This document shows, piece after piece, positions 1,096 through 20,736 of a DNA stretch of 21,672 nucleotides. Every line of letters begins with the position of its first letter. Position 1 is the first letter of the stretch. The position numbers and the translations under genes were made by a program. The DNA lies in the IMG/VR virus record IMGVR_UViG_3300020159_000414, positions 1 to 21,672 of that record. One strand, given 5' to 3'. The notes under the pieces were generated by a model, which saw nothing but the letters and a program-made list of their open reading frames with translations, was not told the origin of the DNA and searched no databases. This stretch comes from a virus.

Positions 1096-1530
1096 TTATG
1101 CGCGGGTATAACCGCGGGGGTCTTGCACAACACATTCAATTTGGTCGTCGTTCAGTACTCTGAACTCCTTGCCAAACACCTTGAAACGCGTACCTGTGTA
1201 GGTGCGCACGAGAACAAAGTCCCCCTCTTTGCACCAAGCGCCTGAAGGGAACTTGGCAGGGTCTTTGTAAGCGTCTGGTCCGACCCGCATAACGAACAAT
1301 ACCGTGGTGGCATGTTCTTCCGCACGCATGGTCGCAGCATCTCGAATTAAATCGAGACTTGTGCCAGCGATTTTTTCATCGACCTCTGGCACGATGCACA
1401 GCAGCTTGTATCCCGTAGGGATAGGTAGCGCTGAGGCTTTGGTTTCGCTATCCGCTTCGGCCTCGGGGGCTTCAAGCGGTTGGATGTGTTTGGGCAGTGT
1501 GATGCCCGGAGGCAGAATGATTTCACTCAT
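1096..1530 (-). CDS. Phage GroES-like co-chaperonin (Cpn10 family)
   Basis: A 144-residue protein whose residues about 36-136 follow the GroES beta-barrel pattern: PTGYKLLCIVPEVDEKIAGTS, then VLFVMRVGPDAY (matching GEVLAVGNG of E. coli GroES), then CKEGDFVLVRTYTGTRF (matching VKVGDIVIF) and EFRVLNDDQIECVV (matching EEVLIMSESDILAIV). Phage co-chaperonins such as T4 gp31 cap host GroEL so that it can fold the phage capsid protein. The gene sits between portal and scaffold, which suits that job. Odd points are a 35-residue acidic N-terminal extension and a mobile-loop region (about residues 54-70, AGTSLDLIRDAATMRAE) without the GGIVL-type motif that binds GroEL. No GroEL gene is visible here, so it would act with the host chaperonin. 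It overlaps the 64-residue gene upstream by 8 bases and lies 9 bases before the scaffold gene. Confidence 0.8.
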   Translation of the reverse strand: MSEIILPPGITLPKHIQPLEAPEAEADSETKASALPIPTGYKLLCIVPEVDEKIAGTSLDLIRDAATMRAEEHATTVLFVMRVGPDAYKDPAKFPSGAWCKEGDFVLVRTYTGTRFKVFGKEFRVLNDDQIECVVQDPRGYTRA

Positions 1531-9122: not shown

Positions 9123-9139
9123 GCGGACAAACTGTCCGC
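9123..9139 (+). repeat. GGACA-type hairpin (repeat family copy 3)
   Basis: GCGGACA and TGTCCGC with loop AAC, followed by AACTTTTTGG. The stem and its CTCGCGG / GCAACT surroundings match the copy at 7470-7486. It lies 19 bases before the ATG at 9159, so it also sits just upstream of that gene's ribosome site (TTGGAG). Confidence 0.8.
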
Positions 9140-9158: not shown

Positions 9159-9593
9159 ATGGAACAAACTAATCAAACCACACAACCCGCTCAAACCTTT
9201 GAGCAACCTACTCAACCATCAATGCCAACAACGGCGCTGATGACCACGCTCATGGCGCTCGTTGAGAACTACATCAAAGACATTGTGTCCGCGCAAGTCA
9301 ACGAGATACTGCTCAATCACTCTACCCTGCGACTCATGGACAACGGCTTCGAGAACAAGATACGCGAGATAGCTCAAGAGGTTGTCGATGACGCGATCAG
9401 TACGCACAACGATGACGAGTACCACATCAGTGAGTCAGACATAGACGACACAGTAAGTACGGCGATCAATGACTTCGACTTCGACGACAAGATCAACGAG
9501 GCAGTCAACGATGCGATCAACGACTTCGACTTCACAGATGTCATCACAGCGTCCATCAAGGACAACATCACGTTCTCTGTAACAGTAGACTAA
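9159..9593 (+). CDS. Highly acidic repetitive protein of unknown function
   Basis: A 144-residue protein. The first 25 residues are Gln/Thr/Pro-rich (TNQTTQPAQTFEQPTQPS). A helical part follows (about 27-75), then a very acidic repetitive half with INDFDFDDKINEAVNDAINDF-like segments; the motif AINDFDF occurs twice, 17 residues apart. There is no cysteine or membrane span. TTGGAG lies 10 bases before the ATG. Acidic proteins made early by phages are sometimes DNA mimics that block host nucleases or polymerases; composition alone cannot show that here. It is followed after 10 bases by the gene at 9604. Confidence 0.75.
   Translation: MEQTNQTTQPAQTFEQPTQPSMPTTALMTTLMALVENYIKDIVSAQVNEILLNHSTLRLMDNGFENKIREIAQEVVDDAISTHNDDEYHISESDIDDTVSTAINDFDFDDKINEAVNDAINDFDFTDVITASIKDNITFSVTVD
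9462..9533 (+). repeat. Internal 51-bp periodic repeat in the acidic protein gene
   Basis: GCGATCAAYGACTTCGACTT begins at 9462 and again at 9513, a 51-base (17-codon) period. The codons for Asp and Asn match in both copies, so this is a nucleotide duplication as well as a protein repeat. Confidence 0.7.
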
Positions 9594-11675: not shown

Positions 11676-11703
11676 ATAGGTTGTCAAGTCTTTGACAACC
11701 TAT
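11676..11703. promoter_or_regulatory. 12-bp inverted repeat, putative operator
   Basis: ATAGGTTGTCAA (11676-11687) and TTGACAACCTAT (11692-11703) are perfect reverse complements separated by GTCT. The repeat covers the -35 zone and ends two bases before the -10 hexamer at 11706. A bound repressor dimer would block the promoter. The lack of a T run behind it argues against a terminator. Confidence 0.7.
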
Positions 11704-11711
11704 GCTATAAT
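11681..11711 (+). promoter_or_regulatory. Promoter for the ATPase-VWA gene block
   Basis: TATAAT at 11706-11711 is a perfect -10 with TG at 11703-11704 (extended -10, TGCTATAAT). TTGTCA at 11681-11686 is a fair -35 with a long 19-base spacer. Transcription should start near 11718, giving a leader of about 20 bases that carries AGGAG before the ATG at 11739. It is overlapped by the inverted repeat at 11676-11703. Confidence 0.75.
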
Positions 11712-11738
11712 TTCTTTAAACAAAACAGGAGAAGCACT

Positions 11739-12941
11739 ATGAGCTATGAGAAGATGACTCTCAATCAGAGAGTACAAGCCGCCAACATTGACTGTATGCG
11801 GCACCCTAAGTTCGCCTTGCTGTCAGGCGTCATCATGCTAGGTAAGAGCGAGGTGTCCGACAAGATACCAACAGCCGCTACCAACGGGCGTGACAAGAAG
11901 TATGGCGCTGAGTTCATCAAGCCACTCAACCGCAAGCAGATGCGCTACTTAGTTCTGCACGAGAACTTTCACGTAGCCCTCAAGCATTGCATCTTGTTCA
12001 AGCAGTACACACGCAAGATGCCTAAGCTCACCAACATAGCACACGACTATGTGGTCAACGCATTGATCGAGGAGATGGACCCCGAGTTCAAGTTTGTCGA
12101 GCGTCCTACCGAGTCGCTGTGCATTGACCGCAAGTACTTCGGTTGGTCATTCCCTCAGGTACTCAATGACCTCATCAAGAGTGGCCGCAAGGAACCTGAG
12201 AAGGGTGACAAGGGCGATGGTGATGGCGGTGACTTCGATGAGCCCCTCGATGCACACGAGGATGGTGAGTTCGATGACAACCCAGTCGAGCAAGACAAGC
12301 TAGGCAAGCAGATCGACGATGCCAATCGTCAAGGCGAGATACTTGCACGTAAGCTTGCGGGTAAGGAAGGTGGTGGTCGTGACATCTTAGGCACAGCCAA
12401 GGAACGCACGACTGATTGGAAGCAAGCATTGCAAGAGTGGATTAGTTCTATCTCTGCGGGCGACGACAACTCACGCTTCTGTCCTCCCAACAAGCGCCTG
12501 CTTGCATCGGGCTTCGTTATGCCATCACACTTCACAGAGTCAGTCGGTGAGTTGATTCTCGCTGTCGATACATCAGGCTCTATGTATCCGTACTACCGCT
12601 TGTTGTTCGGTGAGATTGCTCGCATCTGCAACATCACTAAGCCTGCGGGTGTGCGTGTGCTGTGGTGGGATACCGCCGTGTGTGGTGACCAATCATTCAA
12701 GCCTGCTGACTACGAGCAGATCACATCACTCATGAGTCCCAAGGGTGGTGGCGGCACAACTCCCGATGTTGTCGTTGACTACATCCGCGAACACAAGATC
12801 GACGCTAAGGCAATCGTCTGGTTAACAGATGGCTACCTTGGTTGCGATACCCCGAATACCCCAATGCCATCTCTGTGGGGTGTGGTAGAGAACGAGTCCT
12901 TCGTTCCTACTCATGGCAAAGTCCTGCGTATTTCTGTTTAA
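11739..12941 (+). CDS. Metallopeptidase-like plus VWA domain protein (DUF2201/CobT-like)
   Basis: A 400-residue two-domain protein. The N-terminal domain has a zinc-metallopeptidase HExxH motif (LHENFHVALKH, H74-E75-H78) and the segment NIAHDYVVNALI (99-110), which matches the putative metallopeptidase part of DUF2201 proteins. An acidic, glycine-rich linker follows (about 155-185). The C-terminal VWA-like domain has a complete metal-ion adhesion site: DTSGS (277-281), a threonine in GGGGTTPD (340/341) and LTDG (D364). VWA proteins of this class work with a MoxR/CobS-type AAA+ ATPase, which is exactly the next gene. The pair probably remodels or inserts a cofactor into a target protein. Start: AGGAG before the ATG, just downstream of a strong promoter. 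Whether the HExxH site is catalytic cannot be told from the sequence. Confidence 0.88.
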   Translation: MSYEKMTLNQRVQAANIDCMRHPKFALLSGVIMLGKSEVSDKIPTAATNGRDKKYGAEFIKPLNRKQMRYLVLHENFHVALKHCILFKQYTRKMPKLTNIAHDYVVNALIEEMDPEFKFVERPTESLCIDRKYFGWSFPQVLNDLIKSGRKEPEKGDKGDGDGGDFDEPLDAHEDGEFDDNPVEQDKLGKQIDDANRQGEILARKLAGKEGGGRDILGTAKERTTDWKQALQEWISSISAGDDNSRFCPPNKRLLASGFVMPSHFTESVGELILAVDTSGSMYPYYRLLFGEIARICNITKPAGVRVLWWDTAVCGDQSFKPADYEQITSLMSPKGGGGTTPDVVVDYIREHKIDAKAIVWLTDGYLGCDTPNTPMPSLWGVVENESFVPTHGKVLRISV

Positions 12942-12966
12942 TCAATAACCTTTGGAGAAAATTATC

Positions 12967-14091
12967 ATGAATCAATTCTTATCTGCATCTCAAGTTGTTT
13001 CCCTCGTTGCCGCTGTCGGTGACAAGCGCACAGTAATTGTGGAGGGCGAGAACGGCATCGGCAAGACTGCCCTCTTCCACGCACTACGCAAGCTACCCAA
13101 GTTTGCTGACCACATCGCTGTGCAACCTATTGACTGCACTCAGTTGTCTGACGGCTCTGTGTGGATGCCTGACCTCGATCGTGAGAATGGCGTGTCTCGT
13201 GAGTTACCCAACGAGCGCTTCGGTGTCAGCGCGTTCAATCAACTCGGTGTCAACAACTCCAAGCCTATCCTCGTAGGTCTTGATGAGATCGCCAAGGCAC
13301 CGCAGTTCATCAAGAATGTATTGGCTCCGATCATCTATGAGCGCAGAGTCGGCAACCTAAGCATGCCTGAGGGTAGCGTTGTTGTGTGCTTTACCAATCT
13401 ATCTGTCGAGGGTCTTGGTGATTCCATTCAGGCTCACCTACGCAATCGTCTTGTGTTCGTCAAGATGCGTAAGCCTAACTGTGATGAGTGGGTCAAGTGG
13501 GCTACTGACAATGGCGTCAACCCAATGATTATTGCTTTCGTTAGCAACGAGCCACGCGTTATGCAATCGTTCCTTGACTACGAGAAGGGCGGTATGTTCG
13601 AGGGCAAGGACTTGTCCAAGGACAACGGCTTCATCTTCAACCCCAAGTCTATGCAACTTGCATACGCTACACCTCGCTCATTGGTTGCCGCTAGTGACAT
13701 CCTCGATGCGGGTCTTGGTGTTCTTGATGATGACACTATCGAGGCGGCTCTCGTTGGTACTGTTGGTGCTACTACGGCACAGGCATTGTCATCGTTCATT
13801 CGCTTCGGTCGTGAGATCTGCGAGTACTCTCGCGTTATCAAATCACCTGACACAGCGCCGCTGTCTGACAACCCTACGGCGCAGTTGATTCAGGTATTCC
13901 AGTTCGTTACTCGCGTAGCGGACAGGGCAGAGGCAGAAGCCATCGTCAAGTACGTATGGCGTATGCGTGCAGAGATGCAGTCGATCTTCTGCAACACAGT
14001 AGCAACAAGTCAGCGTGTGGCTTTGTTCGCTACGATCAATGAGTTCGGTCGCATGTTAGCCGAGCACAAAATCTTTTTCTCAACCAAGTAA
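12967..14091 (+). CDS. MoxR/CobS-like AAA+ ATPase
   Basis: A 374-residue ATPase. The start is the ATG at 12967, preceded by TTTGGAG at a 9-base distance; an in-frame TTG at 12952 would put that ribosome site inside the gene. Motifs in order are Walker A GENGIGKT (27-34), Walker B ILVGLDEI (101-108), a sensor-1 Asn in CFTN (N144), a likely arginine finger in HLRNRLVF (R159/R161) and a sensor-2 segment ATPRSL (R237). A MoxR-like order of motifs, and the partner VWA gene 25 bases upstream, point to a hexameric chaperone-like ring. Phage genes of this type are often named cobS, but no cobalamin pathway gene is near, so cobalt chelation is unlikely to be its role. Confidence 0.9.
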   Translation: MNQFLSASQVVSLVAAVGDKRTVIVEGENGIGKTALFHALRKLPKFADHIAVQPIDCTQLSDGSVWMPDLDRENGVSRELPNERFGVSAFNQLGVNNSKPILVGLDEIAKAPQFIKNVLAPIIYERRVGNLSMPEGSVVVCFTNLSVEGLGDSIQAHLRNRLVFVKMRKPNCDEWVKWATDNGVNPMIIAFVSNEPRVMQSFLDYEKGGMFEGKDLSKDNGFIFNPKSMQLAYATPRSLVAASDILDAGLGVLDDDTIEAALVGTVGATTAQALSSFIRFGREICEYSRVIKSPDTAPLSDNPTAQLIQVFQFVTRVADRAEAEAIVKYVWRMRAEMQSIFCNTVATSQRVALFATINEFGRMLAEHKIFFSTK

Positions 14092-14109
14092 TCACAAGGA
14101 GTTCTTATC

Positions 14110-15000
14110 ATGACTACAACTAACACTACACCCCGCCACAACATCGACACATGCGCTATGCTTGTGGAGTTCAACGCTTCTGTGTGGACAGCACGTAAGC
14201 TAGACAAGACTACTACCGATGAGGTAGTGGCAAGCAAGAACGCGGGGGCAAAGGATGCCGCCCGTGTGAACAAGCACCTGCTCGCAGGTCGCACCGAGTT
14301 GGATGTTATTCAACAAGCGGTCAGTCGTGCGCGTCAATTCGTATACGACAACACAGCGCCTTGGTCTGACTCAGGTCTGCGCCTCTTACCTACTGTCAAC
14401 TTCATGAAGTTCACCGAGCGCATGAATGACTTCGAGGAAGAGATGGAGGCCATCGTCAAGTCCTTTGTGGCTATCTACCCTACTCTTATCACAGCACAGG
14501 CCTTGGCTCTTGGCGATATGTTCAAGAGAGATGACTACCCCACAGCCAATGAGATCATGACCAAGTTCTCATTCCGCGTTAACTACATGCCTGTCCCCTC
14601 ATCGGGTGACTTCCGTGTGGATGTGGGCAACCAAGCACAGGCAGAACTCAAGGCTCGCCTTGAATCTCTGACACAAGAACGCATCGACTCTGCGATGGCA
14701 GATGTGCGCGAGAGACTTAGCACTCACCTCAAACGTATGTCAGACAGACTGACTACTGACTATGTGAATGGTGAAGCTAAGCAAAGGCGTTTCCACGACA
14801 CGCTTGTCGATGGTGCGCTTGAGTTGTGTGACCTCACCAAGTCATTGAACGTGACGAACGATGTGGCTTTAGAGGAAGCACGTAAGCAGTTGGAACAGCT
14901 ACTCGTTGGCGTGTCCCCTGCTGATCTGCGTAAGAACGAGGCCATCCGCCAAGACGTCAAGAAGAACGTCGATGCCATCCTCGACAAGTTCAACTTCTAA
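14110..15000 (+). CDS. Helical protein resembling DUF3150, third member of the ATPase-VWA block
   Basis: A 296-residue, mostly helical protein. The order of segments (ASVWTARKLDK at 23-33, RVNKHLLAG at 52-60, a PWSDSGLRLLP turn at 84-94, then long helices with ALGDMF and a short VPSSGDFRVDV strand, then coiled coil to the end) resembles DUF3150 proteins, which I associate with CobS/CobT-like gene pairs in mobile elements. That match is from memory of the pattern and is not certain. AAGGAG precedes the ATG. It follows the ATPase by 18 bases, and all three genes appear to be one operon. It may be an adaptor or a substrate of the ATPase-VWA machine. Confidence 0.75.
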   Translation: MTTTNTTPRHNIDTCAMLVEFNASVWTARKLDKTTTDEVVASKNAGAKDAARVNKHLLAGRTELDVIQQAVSRARQFVYDNTAPWSDSGLRLLPTVNFMKFTERMNDFEEEMEAIVKSFVAIYPTLITAQALALGDMFKRDDYPTANEIMTKFSFRVNYMPVPSSGDFRVDVGNQAQAELKARLESLTQERIDSAMADVRERLSTHLKRMSDRLTTDYVNGEAKQRRFHDTLVDGALELCDLTKSLNVTNDVALEEARKQLEQLLVGVSPADLRKNEAIRQDVKKNVDAILDKFNF

Positions 15001-15010
15001 GGAGAAACAA

Positions 15011-15169
15011 ATGAACACTAAATACCTGACACACGTGCGTAGCTTGTTTGCAACATACGATGCACCGCCCTCTACCATCCGCCGTTACCAACGCCAATGG
15101 GTGCAGTCTATCCGTAGGCTTGGTGACAAGTGGTTGCTAGCACATCACGTACAACGATTGGATGCGTGA
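15011..15169 (+). CDS. 52-residue basic protein of unknown function
   Basis: ATG at 15011 has AAGGAG eight bases upstream; the binding site touches the stop of the gene before it (TAAGGAG). The product, MNTKYLTHVRSLFATYDAPP and on, is basic and helical with a Trp/Arg-rich middle (RRYQRQWVQSIRRLGDKW). It could bind nucleic acid, but no fold is recognised. The stop overlaps the next start (TGATG), which supports both gene calls. It is short but has better initiation signals than many longer frames here. Confidence 0.72.
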   Translation: MNTKYLTHVRSLFATYDAPPSTIRRYQRQWVQSIRRLGDKWLLAHHVQRLDA

Positions 15170-20439: not shown

Positions 20440-20736
20440 ATGCAGATACCAAAGAAAATTACTGTGGGCAGGAAGACCTACGCGGTCATCAAAGTCAAGA
20501 AAGCAAAGACAAAGAACATCCTTGCCACAATTGACTATACACACGGCATCATATGGATGGCAACACACGACATGCAGGGCAACAAGCTTGGCAAAGAAGA
20601 AATGTCTGACACGTTCTGGCACGAGCTGACACACGCTGTGCTACATGACATGAACCACGATCTGTGTAGTGACGAGAAGTTTGTCAACGCTTTTGCCAAC
20701 CGCCTGTCCCTTGCCGTGGACTCAGCCCAACTATGA
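20440..20736 (+). CDS. Small HExxH zinc metalloprotein
   Basis: A 98-residue protein with a zinc-binding FWHELTHAVLHD segment (H61, E62, H65) and a likely third ligand E79 in DEKFVNAFANRLS. The arrangement is like a minimal gluzincin or an ImmA/IrrE-type fold, of which this would be a short form. The first 40 residues form a beta-rich lead (GRKTYAVIKVK). It might cleave a repressor or another phage or host protein; the substrate is unknown. AGGAG lies 8 bases before the ATG, and the nuclease gene overlaps its stop (ATGA). Confidence 0.82.
   Translation: MQIPKKITVGRKTYAVIKVKKAKTKNILATIDYTHGIIWMATHDMQGNKLGKEEMSDTFWHELTHAVLHDMNHDLCSDEKFVNAFANRLSLAVDSAQL

Follow-up and report, generated by a model that had tools for sequence, protein, structure and literature searches.

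The operon and its flanking elements

The window analyzed in this study is a whole IMG/VR virus record of 21.7 kb (IMGVR_UViG_3300020159_000414; 21,672 nucleotides), which is a fragment and for which a megablast search of phage records yielded no match. Three open reading frames occupy positions 11739-12941, 12967-14091 and 14110-15000 of the plus strand, with intergenic gaps of 25 and 18 nucleotides and with GGAG ahead of each ATG. This layout matches an earlier examination of the DNA letters (hereafter the sequence-only reading), which had described adjacent genes with short gaps. The operon shares its strand with genes for a family A DNA polymerase, a PD-(D/E)XK exonuclease and a resolvase-like protein, and is opposite to the terminase and portal genes on the minus strand. 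With regard to the large subunit of a CobNST-like chelatase, the longest open reading frames of this fragment encode the portal (833 amino acids) and the DNA polymerase (655 amino acids).

Upstream of the first gene, a promoter-like element spans positions 11681 to 11711 of the plus strand and consists of TTGTCA (11681-11686) and TATAAT (11706-11711) separated by 19 nucleotides. The element includes a dyad core of the form TGTC-N8-GACA (11682-11697) that is embedded in a longer inverted repeat (11676-11703). The sequence-only reading had proposed that the operon carries its own promoter and a putative operator, and relatives lend this proposal partial support. In 59 of 64 distinct loci, the arrangement TGTC-N8-GACA-N5-9-TANNNT is found close to where the first gene begins, regardless of whether the VWA or the ATPase gene comes first. 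Of ten long relatives, eight carry a stricter form of this arrangement once, one carries it twice and one lacks it, and in all nine that carry it one match is located at the start of this operon. However, a sigma-70 scan of the window with 16-18 nucleotide spacing does not list the element and returns fewer sites (six) than in shuffled sequence (mean of 11.5), and the dyad is also picked up as a terminator-like hairpin. We regard the dyad together with TATAAT as promoter-like, and hence as a putative promoter.

A possible small gene of 52 amino acids (15011..15169, plus strand) begins 10 nucleotides past gene 3 and is likewise preceded by GGAG. Among 83 distinct viral loci with at least 600 nucleotides after gene 3, 35 contain a relative of this open reading frame, at a median distance of 14 nucleotides and with no in-frame stop in the matches. 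Because conservation is not seen in the remaining loci, its product would be accessory at most.

Features of the three proteins

Gene 1 (11739..12941, plus strand) encodes a protein of 400 amino acids with an N-terminal metallopeptidase-like domain and a C-terminal VWA domain. Both DUF2201 domains exceed their gathering scores, with 48.6 bits for PF13203 (DUF2201_N, ‘putative metallopeptidase’; cut-off 23.2) and 42 bits for PF09967 (DUF2201, VWA-like; cut-off 26.4), and the Pfam scan reveals a VWA protein without effector domains. The HExxH motif is HENFH at residues 74-78, and the MIDAS comprises DTSGS (277-281), T340 and D364. Residues H74, E75, H78, D277, S279, S281, T340 and D364 are invariant in all 29 rows of the alignment, as expected from the sequence-only reading, which had noted an HExxH motif combined with an intact MIDAS. 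In a wider set of 10 phage and plasmid relatives, all retain the MIDAS residues and nine retain HExxH. The HExxH residues are lost in plasmid protein L319, as are those at the D103 and N107 positions. Since D103 is invariant in 29/29 rows and disappears alongside HExxH in L319, it may serve as the third zinc ligand of what we consider a putative zinc protease site.

A PDB sequence search with gene 1 found nothing. Its structure model (mean pLDDT of 77.8) matches VWA folds with a Z score of 12.1 and an rmsd of 2.5 over 133 aligned residues, and the VWA domain fills the match list. With Foldseek, the top rows are TROVE/Ro60 proteins, followed by MIDAS-UBL complexes of midasin (E = 9e-5; TM 0.24/0.37). 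Given this ranking and these values, the likeness of the modeled protein to midasin is only suggestive.

The name attached to phrog_1314, HNH endonuclease, was considered for gene 1 and rejected, as Pfam at an E value of 0.1 reports DUF2201_N and DUF2201 and no HNH family. The same label is found on gp25-type proteins in many database records, though no HNH domain is seen here. The Pfam result thus corrects a misleading name.

Gene 2 (12967..14091, plus strand) encodes an AAA+ ATPase of 374 amino acids that matches the ATPase family phrog_1297 (E = 5.8e-39). Its score against Pfam AAA_5 (14.7 bits) is under the cut-off of 22, which its relative from cyanophage MinM2 surpasses (23.6 bits). Residues G27, G30, G32, K33, T34, D106, E107, N144, R159 and R161 are kept in 24 of 24 rows. 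We take these to be the residues of Walker A, Walker B, sensor 1 and the arginine positions, and on this assignment the ATPase would be complete, as had been claimed. A PDB sequence search yielded only chance-level P-loop matches. The profile of the gene 2 family aligns with RavA (94.8%, E = 5.5e-8) over 112 columns of the P-loop region, a result that any AAA+ protein could give. The protein appears MoxR-like by context and distant similarity.

Gene 3 (14110..15000, plus strand) encodes a protein of 296 amino acids for which DUF3150 is the sole family shown by the Pfam scan. The match to PF11348 reaches 19.7 bits (E = 5.6e-4), below the gathering score of 24.9, and we therefore call the protein ‘DUF3150-like’. 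PF11348 detects only one of six records of gene 3 relatives, and that one below the cut-off. By tblastn, gene 3 matches the DUF3150 protein of phage MinM2 (E = 2e-24) and also plasmid relatives. A bridge is provided by a Candidatus Manganitrophus DUF3150 protein, which is over the PF11348 cut-off (35.3 bits) and is 28% identical to gene 3. Comparison with canonical DUF3150 gives 88.6% (E = 2.7e-6) with four plasmid proteins, 30.2% (E = 5.4e-4) when the profile is weighted toward phages and 4% (E = 0.01) with the pCAR1 DUF3150 protein alone, which suggests a distant likeness.

A PDB sequence search with gene 3 found nothing. The model of this protein (mean pLDDT of 75.1, pTM of 0.42) is mainly helical with short strands, in keeping with the helical third partner that had been predicted. 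For the model-covered parts, a PDB fold search recovers helical bundles only, the best of which is a designed protein (Z = 9.7), and a BFVD fold search gives eight matches at E ≤ 0.001, one of them named DUF3150.

Linkage in viruses and carriage by plasmids

All three genes occur together in 29/29, 30/30 and 15/15 viral loci from three overlapping query sets, counted on related viral contigs that extend 4 kb or more to each side, many of them close relatives. One set of relatives comprised the best 80 of 145, and two others (the best 80 of 343 and of 361) lie outside the linkage count. Every shortfall in linkage is a contig end or a stub match of 17-19 amino acids. The genes are thus linked beyond chance. 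A comparison of gene order across phages had been suggested by the sequence-only reading, for which unlinked genes would have spoken against an operon; instead, the trio is complete in all evaluable viral loci, and the third gene accompanies the other two, as proposed.

Numerous viral contigs are almost the same as one another, at identities of up to 99%, and this might indicate that unrelated neighbors are held together merely by the synteny of close phages. However, gene order varies while linkage stays intact. Viral contigs exhibit both VWA-ATPase-DUF3150 and ATPase-VWA-DUF3150 orders, and cyanophage MinM2 has a third, in which ATPase, DUF3150 and VWA genes are interspersed with small genes, as is likewise seen in plasmids. 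Small genes inserted inside the trio of some relatives have no common theme. Moreover, plasmids with the same trio have different other genes. The arrangements in plasmids and in MinM2 run counter to simple synteny, which was rejected on these grounds and is in our estimation exceedingly improbable.

On plasmids, the VWA gene adjoins the DUF3150-like gene on the same strand and within less than 200 bp in 40 of 43 cases, as judged by eye from the coordinates of two sets of matches, among the matches listed (60 of 116 records in the second). The three plasmid records that lack a paired VWA gene were checked by profile search. In three Candidatus Manganitrophus plasmids, the DUF3150 gene is accompanied by DUF1257, DUF2997 and an AAA protein of another kind, and such a VWA gene is absent. 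An ATPase gene is upstream in all eight of the paired plasmid regions examined. Among 239 protein clusters present in at least two of 23 neighborhoods, four join phage to plasmid or chromosome, and these are the three genes plus minus-strand open reading frames that run across the plasmid ATPase gene. The only real genes linking phage and plasmid neighborhoods are therefore these three. DUF3150 genes reside on 1139 of 72,556 plasmid records, of which 983 are typed conjugative. The description of the trio as a phage operon, although correct in that it is conserved in phages, was narrower than reality and missed this plasmid distribution.

A second flavor of the block, with the order AAA (CbbQ-like), DUF3150 and HExxH/VWA (CobT-like), is carried by pCAR1, by an IncC plasmid and by two further plasmids, in each case beside or near ssb, RecT-bet or exonuclease genes. 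From the gene order in the IncC plasmid, SXT s067 would correspond to DUF3150 and s068 to the VWA protein. On eight of 11 plasmid records with PRTRC cassettes (Prok_Ub, E2, JAB, ThiF), the ThiF gene is 4-20 kb from a DUF3150-type gene, a proximity that a shared plasmid backbone may explain. Prok_Ub gave no match in 11 phage records, but the control gave none either, and this negative carries no weight.

A search of genome contigs with one plasmid protein returned four loci, and chromosomal carriage is rare among the genomes sampled (three of 399 Burkholderiales genomes, seed genome included). This rarity, the trio common to phages and plasmids, and the conserved promoter-like element of the operon would all suit a role in counter-defense or host take-over, wherein a host defense or regulatory complex encountered by incoming DNA would be dismantled or cleaved. 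PADLOC, whose library covers defense rather than counter-defense, matches none of the other window proteins and returns only weak P-loop matches (E = 0.006-0.008) for the ATPase, and we judge this role to be unlikely.

A putative remodeling machine and its target

We lean modestly toward the view that the three genes encode one three-part, ATP-driven ATPase/VWA remodeling machine whose target is more likely to be a non-virion component; here we infer complex formation, ATP-driven remodeling, timing and the nature of the target. An AAA+ ring formed by gene 2 would be powered by ATP. The HExxH-VWA protein would act as a co-chaperone whose MIDAS grips the target, as is thought for NorD with NorQ (PMC13036017 and PMC9976466), and ATV p618/p892 offer another analogy of mechanism (PMC4124505). 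The DUF3150-like protein might be a third dedicated subunit or adaptor in some lineages of the machine only. Because lytic phages and conjugative plasmids both keep the trio, the target is more likely to reflect a cell-level need than a virion part, and could be DNA complexes of replication or recombination, or else some host factor that is encountered on entry.

A virion target had also been suggested by the sequence-only reading, and the metallopeptidase-vWA/MoxR pair found in group 2.2 jumbo phages has been proposed to be a virion assembly chaperone with peptidolytic processing (PMC7824862). In keeping with such a role, ATV p618/p892 contribute to the development of tails (PMC4124505), the structural module of RPP1 is near its gp24/gp25 homologues (PMC4193335), and the PA5oct ATPase record is noted ‘ESI-MS/MS’, as are structural proteins there, a hint of a virion link. 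In contrast, the trio of the window is apart from the head genes, and N4 gp24/gp25 are middle genes (PMC4193335). A virion-protein target fits badly with the trio on plasmids, which make no virions, and this carriage lowers the standing of a virion-only chaperone, which we keep as a serious rival but regard as somewhat unlikely.

Metal or cofactor insertion in the manner of CbbQO, NorQD or CobST would draw on the same two-component build, and the MIDAS and ATPase motifs are intact. The second flavor has CbbQ_C and CobT domains, and a MoaE gene is located ~6 kb upstream of the MinM2 module. However, carriers share no common metalloenzyme cluster, and, as had been stated earlier, no cofactor enzyme or pathway gene is found among the proteins scanned in this fragment, where a distant target gene is possible. 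Such a function is in our view improbable.

The preferred reading, a three-part machine with a non-virion target, implies through its shared carriage a task that is probably common to several kinds of mobile DNA, phages and plasmids among them. Should the phage trio and the plasmid block prove to be a single type of machine, a lytic phage would provide a fast and simple system for finding the target. More tentatively, and with clear reservation, it is possible that DUF3150 and its relatives serve generally as the third subunit in AAA+ machines of mobile DNA, with a single HExxH-VWA/AAA+/DUF3150 architecture common to lytic phages, Burkholderiales plasmids and the IncC, IncP-7 and probably SXT/R391 backbones. 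These could be ATP-driven zinc proteases or unfoldases that clear a host or nucleoprotein obstacle during the establishment of foreign DNA.

Comparison with known systems

The ATPase/VWA pair is already known from jumbo phages (PMC7824862), from N4 gp24/gp25 and from conjugative plasmids (PMC2642839). A full-text search of open-license PMC articles found no paper that uses the name DUF3150, names a DUF3150 partner or joins the phage and plasmid versions. Group 2.2 jumbo phages resemble the window in having an AAA+ ATPase plus a vWA protein that bears a metallopeptidase domain at its N terminus (PMC7824862). By tblastn, gene 1 is related to the PA5oct protein (30.7% over 81%). N4 gp24/gp25, a homologous pair, are both middle and core genes (PMC4193335), and Schitoviridae (N4-like phages) have adjacent or near-adjacent genes for the gp24 ATPase and the DUF2201-type gp25 vWFA protein. 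In Presley, HExxH and MIDAS are both kept, as in gene 1.

Unlike the window, N4, Presley and VBP47 (N4-like comparisons), the jumbo phages PA5oct and phage G, and also KpS8 lack a DUF3150-like gene by profile search. Because it is absent from these six pair- or ATPase-bearing phages, the third protein would be a partner in some lineages only, and the ATPase/VWA pair works without it elsewhere. The trio therefore stands as a conserved unit among relatives of this phage, although the pair also exists in N4-like phages, jumbo phages and plasmids.

Burkholderiales and Rhodovastum plasmids possess all three families, in the different order ATPase, DUF3150-like and VWA, with tblastn identities of ~21-25% for gene 1 and ~26-34% for gene 3; HExxH is kept in three of four aligned VWA proteins and MIDAS in four of four. 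The ORF100-103 block of pCAR1, which is reported to be conserved in R478, Rts1, SXT and R391 (PMC2642839), also combines AAA+, DUF3150 and HExxH+VWA proteins in the order AAA-DUF3150-VWA, from which ORF102 would be the DUF3150 gene. It differs in its CobT/NorD-like VWA protein without a DUF2201 Pfam match, in its ATPase with CbbQ_C, and in its distant homology to gene 3.

RavA-ViaA and NorQ-NorD, among the systems with which the operon had aptly been compared, likewise pair an AAA+ protein with a VWA co-chaperone, and our profiles match the P-loop region of RavA and the VWA domain of ViaA. ViaA, unlike gene 1, has no match to the HExxH domain, and the literature consulted on these pairs does not mention a third subunit of the DUF3150 kind. 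In the vWA-MoxR ternary conflict systems, the third partner is VMAP, iSTAND, FtsH or a beta-propeller protein (PMC7159879), whereas that of the window is DUF3150-like and its VWA protein is free of effector domains in the Pfam scan. What these systems share with the operon is the combination of MoxR, vWA and a third conserved protein.

The three-gene operon and its conservation in viral contigs

The window spans an entire virus record of 21,672 bases. The operon comprises three plus-strand genes whose order is that of their numbers. Gene 1 (11739-12941) encodes a 400 aa protein with two Pfam domains, DUF2201_N (metallopeptidase-like) and DUF2201 (VWA), gene 2 (12967-14091) encodes a 374 aa AAA+ ATPase, and gene 3 (14110-15000) encodes a 296 aa protein with a match to DUF3150 that falls under the Pfam cut-off. 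Gaps of 25 and 18 nt separate successive genes, and GGAG precedes every ATG. An ORF of 52 aa (15011-15169) starts 10 nt past gene 3, and relatives of it were found in 35 of the 83 distinct viral loci that extend 600 nt or more beyond gene 3. The PHROG 1314 name for gene 1, ‘HNH endonuclease’, was rejected because Pfam shows DUF2201_N and DUF2201 only. This misleading name is spreading through the records of phrog_1314 relatives (N4 gp25, Presley_33, PA5oct gp144 and others). Elsewhere in the window, another small HExxH protein (98 aa, HELTH; 20440-20736, plus strand; phrog_1233, E 1.7e-13) adjoins the DNA polymerase, and a GroES-like co-chaperonin (1096-1530, minus strand; phrog_3188, E 6e-7) is flanked by a scaffold-side gene and the portal gene.

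Viral contigs were fetched with each protein singly, and profiles built from alignments found the complete trio in 58 of 68 loci for gene 1, 74 of 80 for gene 2 (the best 80 of 145) and 39 of 49 for gene 3, in sets that overlap and include numerous close relatives. Contig ends explain the shortfall, except for two loci (L184 and L185) that are stub matches of 17-19 aa. The sequence-only reading had proposed a three-gene unit in which gene 3 co-occurs with the other two, and this is borne out by every viral locus having at least 4 kb on both sides of the query gene (29/29, 30/30 and 15/15). The phage trio is a real, conserved three-gene set.

Two gene orders occur in the viral contigs, VWA-ATPase-D3150 and ATPase-VWA-D3150. 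A further order is found in cyanophage MinM2, where one small gene separates the ATPase from DUF3150 and three small genes separate DUF3150 from the VWA gene. MinM2 also carries a gene for MoaE (molybdenum cofactor; L186 533-847) about 6 kb upstream of this module.

Of 64 distinct loci, 59 (37 VWA-first, 22 ATPase-first) have TGTC-N8-GACA followed by TANNNT near the start of the first operon gene; in arbitrary windows of these loci the frequency is 150/9610, true sites counted in. Across ten relatives of 63-67 kb, a stricter motif yields one match in eight, two in one and none in one, and the operon start carries one match in all nine relatives that have any. A standard-spacing promoter scan of the window did not list the dyad element among its sites, and the element resembles a hairpin terminator too. 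We consider the dyad and TANNNT a putative operon-specific promoter with operator. A hairpin (GCGGACA-aac-TGTCCGC) followed by a T-run also lies at 9123-9139 (plus strand), ahead of a gene at 9159, and a similar one occurs in the ATPase gene leader of ATPase-first relatives (e.g. loci L141, L172, L125 and L050).

Relatives on plasmids and chromosomes

Using tblastn, gene 3 relatives were found on 43 plasmid records, for the most part from Burkholderiales. When the coordinates of the two match listings were paired by eye, 40 of these records had a VWA relative on the same strand less than 200 bp away. An ATPase gene is upstream in all eight plasmid regions opened, adjoining gene 3 in seven and lying ~3.6 kb off in Simplicispira. 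The three exceptions among the 43 are Candidatus Manganitrophus plasmids, where DUF3150 accompanies another AAA protein, DUF1257 and DUF2997, and where a profile search found no VWA gene of the gene 1 family. On these plasmids (L337 3857-6879, L338 and L339), the AAA ATPase, DUF1257, DUF2997 and DUF3150 genes are consecutive, with JAB upstream and Fic downstream; the DUF3150 gene of L338 and L339 is annotated as two overlapping pieces.

A comparison of 23 neighbourhoods from phages, plasmids and chromosomes gave 239 protein clusters with members in at least two records. Four clusters bridge phages to plasmids or chromosomes, and three of these are the trio genes; the fourth consists of one PA5oct ORF together with minus-strand ORFs that overlap the ATPase gene of the plasmids. 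Opened bacterial loci also contain the other two trio genes, given enough contig. Gene 3 occurs in 3 of 399 sampled Burkholderiales genomes, the seed genome among them, which fits mobile carriage. A PRTRC cassette on a Robbsia plasmid (L345 41500-47000) encodes Prok_Ub, Prok-E2_D, Prok-JAB and ThiF domains, and its ThiF gene is 4 kb from the trio; on 8 of 11 tested DUF3150-type plasmids, ThiF lies at a distance of 4-20 kb.

In pCAR1, genes for a CbbQ-like AAA protein, DUF3150 and a CobT/NorD-like VWA protein are consecutive; a transcript study describes ORF100-103 (MoxR-like and VWA protein) as conserved in R478, Rts1, SXT and R391 (PMC2642839). The same three families lie within ~8 kb on one IncC, one Providencia and one Aeromonas plasmid, with ssb, bet/RecT or a lambda-type exonuclease beside or between them. 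The gene 3 profile matches the four plasmid DUF3150 proteins at 88.6% (E 2.7e-6), or at 95.8% with the Manganitrophus bridge, whereas controls (reversed or unrelated) reach ≤1%. The match falls, however, to only 30.2% when the profile is phage-weighted and to 4% against pCAR1 alone. Given such mixed scores, a tie between phage gene 3 and the plasmid DUF3150 family is likely, though less than secure. In SXT, deletion of bet, exo, s067, s068 or s070 is reported to reduce transfer up to 10-fold, and deletion of s063 ~100-fold (PMC2791158); judging only from gene order, some of the deleted genes may be trio members.

Conserved sites and a candidate function

In an alignment of 29 gene 1 rows with identity to the window protein down to 44%, H74, E75, H78, H83, D103 and N107 are invariant, as are the MIDAS residues D277, S279, S281, T340 and D364. 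A wider set of ten phage and plasmid proteins retains the MIDAS residues in 10/10 and HExxH in 9/10. The one protein without HExxH, L319 from a Paraburkholderia plasmid, has also lost the D103/N107 positions, and this joint loss fits HExxH and D103/N107 forming what may be one site. HExxH is invariant in all four CobT-like plasmid VWA proteins too, and the profile match between these proteins and gene 1 falls at this motif (78.8%, E 1.6e-5, 68 columns). Nucleotide-site residues of gene 2 are kept in 24/24 rows, and G30, G32, K33, D106 and N144 in 16/16 of a wider set.

By analogy, the best model for the trio is probably NorQ-NorD. Gene 2 would form an AAA+ ring, the gene 1 VWA domain would act as a co-chaperone that grips the target via its MIDAS, and gene 3 would be a third, dedicated subunit. 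The HExxH site might additionally give this machine protease activity. Cryo-EM of NorQ-NorD places a finger of the VWA domain in the ring pore (PMC13036017), and NorD MIDAS mutations are reported to retain NorQ binding and abolish target activity (PMC9976466). In the archaeal virus ATV, the MoxR ATPase p618 is bound by the VWA protein p892, which raises its activity (PMC4124505).

A role in assembling and processing virions has been proposed in print for the jumbo-phage pair (PMC7824862), and the PA5oct ATPase record carries an ‘ESI-MS/MS’ note. However, the window operon sits among replication and recombination genes, apart from terminase and portal, and the N4 homologues of the pair are described as middle genes (PMC4193335). 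Plasmids, moreover, carry the trio, and its distribution over both phages and plasmids argues for a shared, non-virion task. For these reasons, a non-virion part is the more likely target.

The trio is probably a variant of the known MoxR-VWA kind, with an additional partner of which we found no description in the literature searched.
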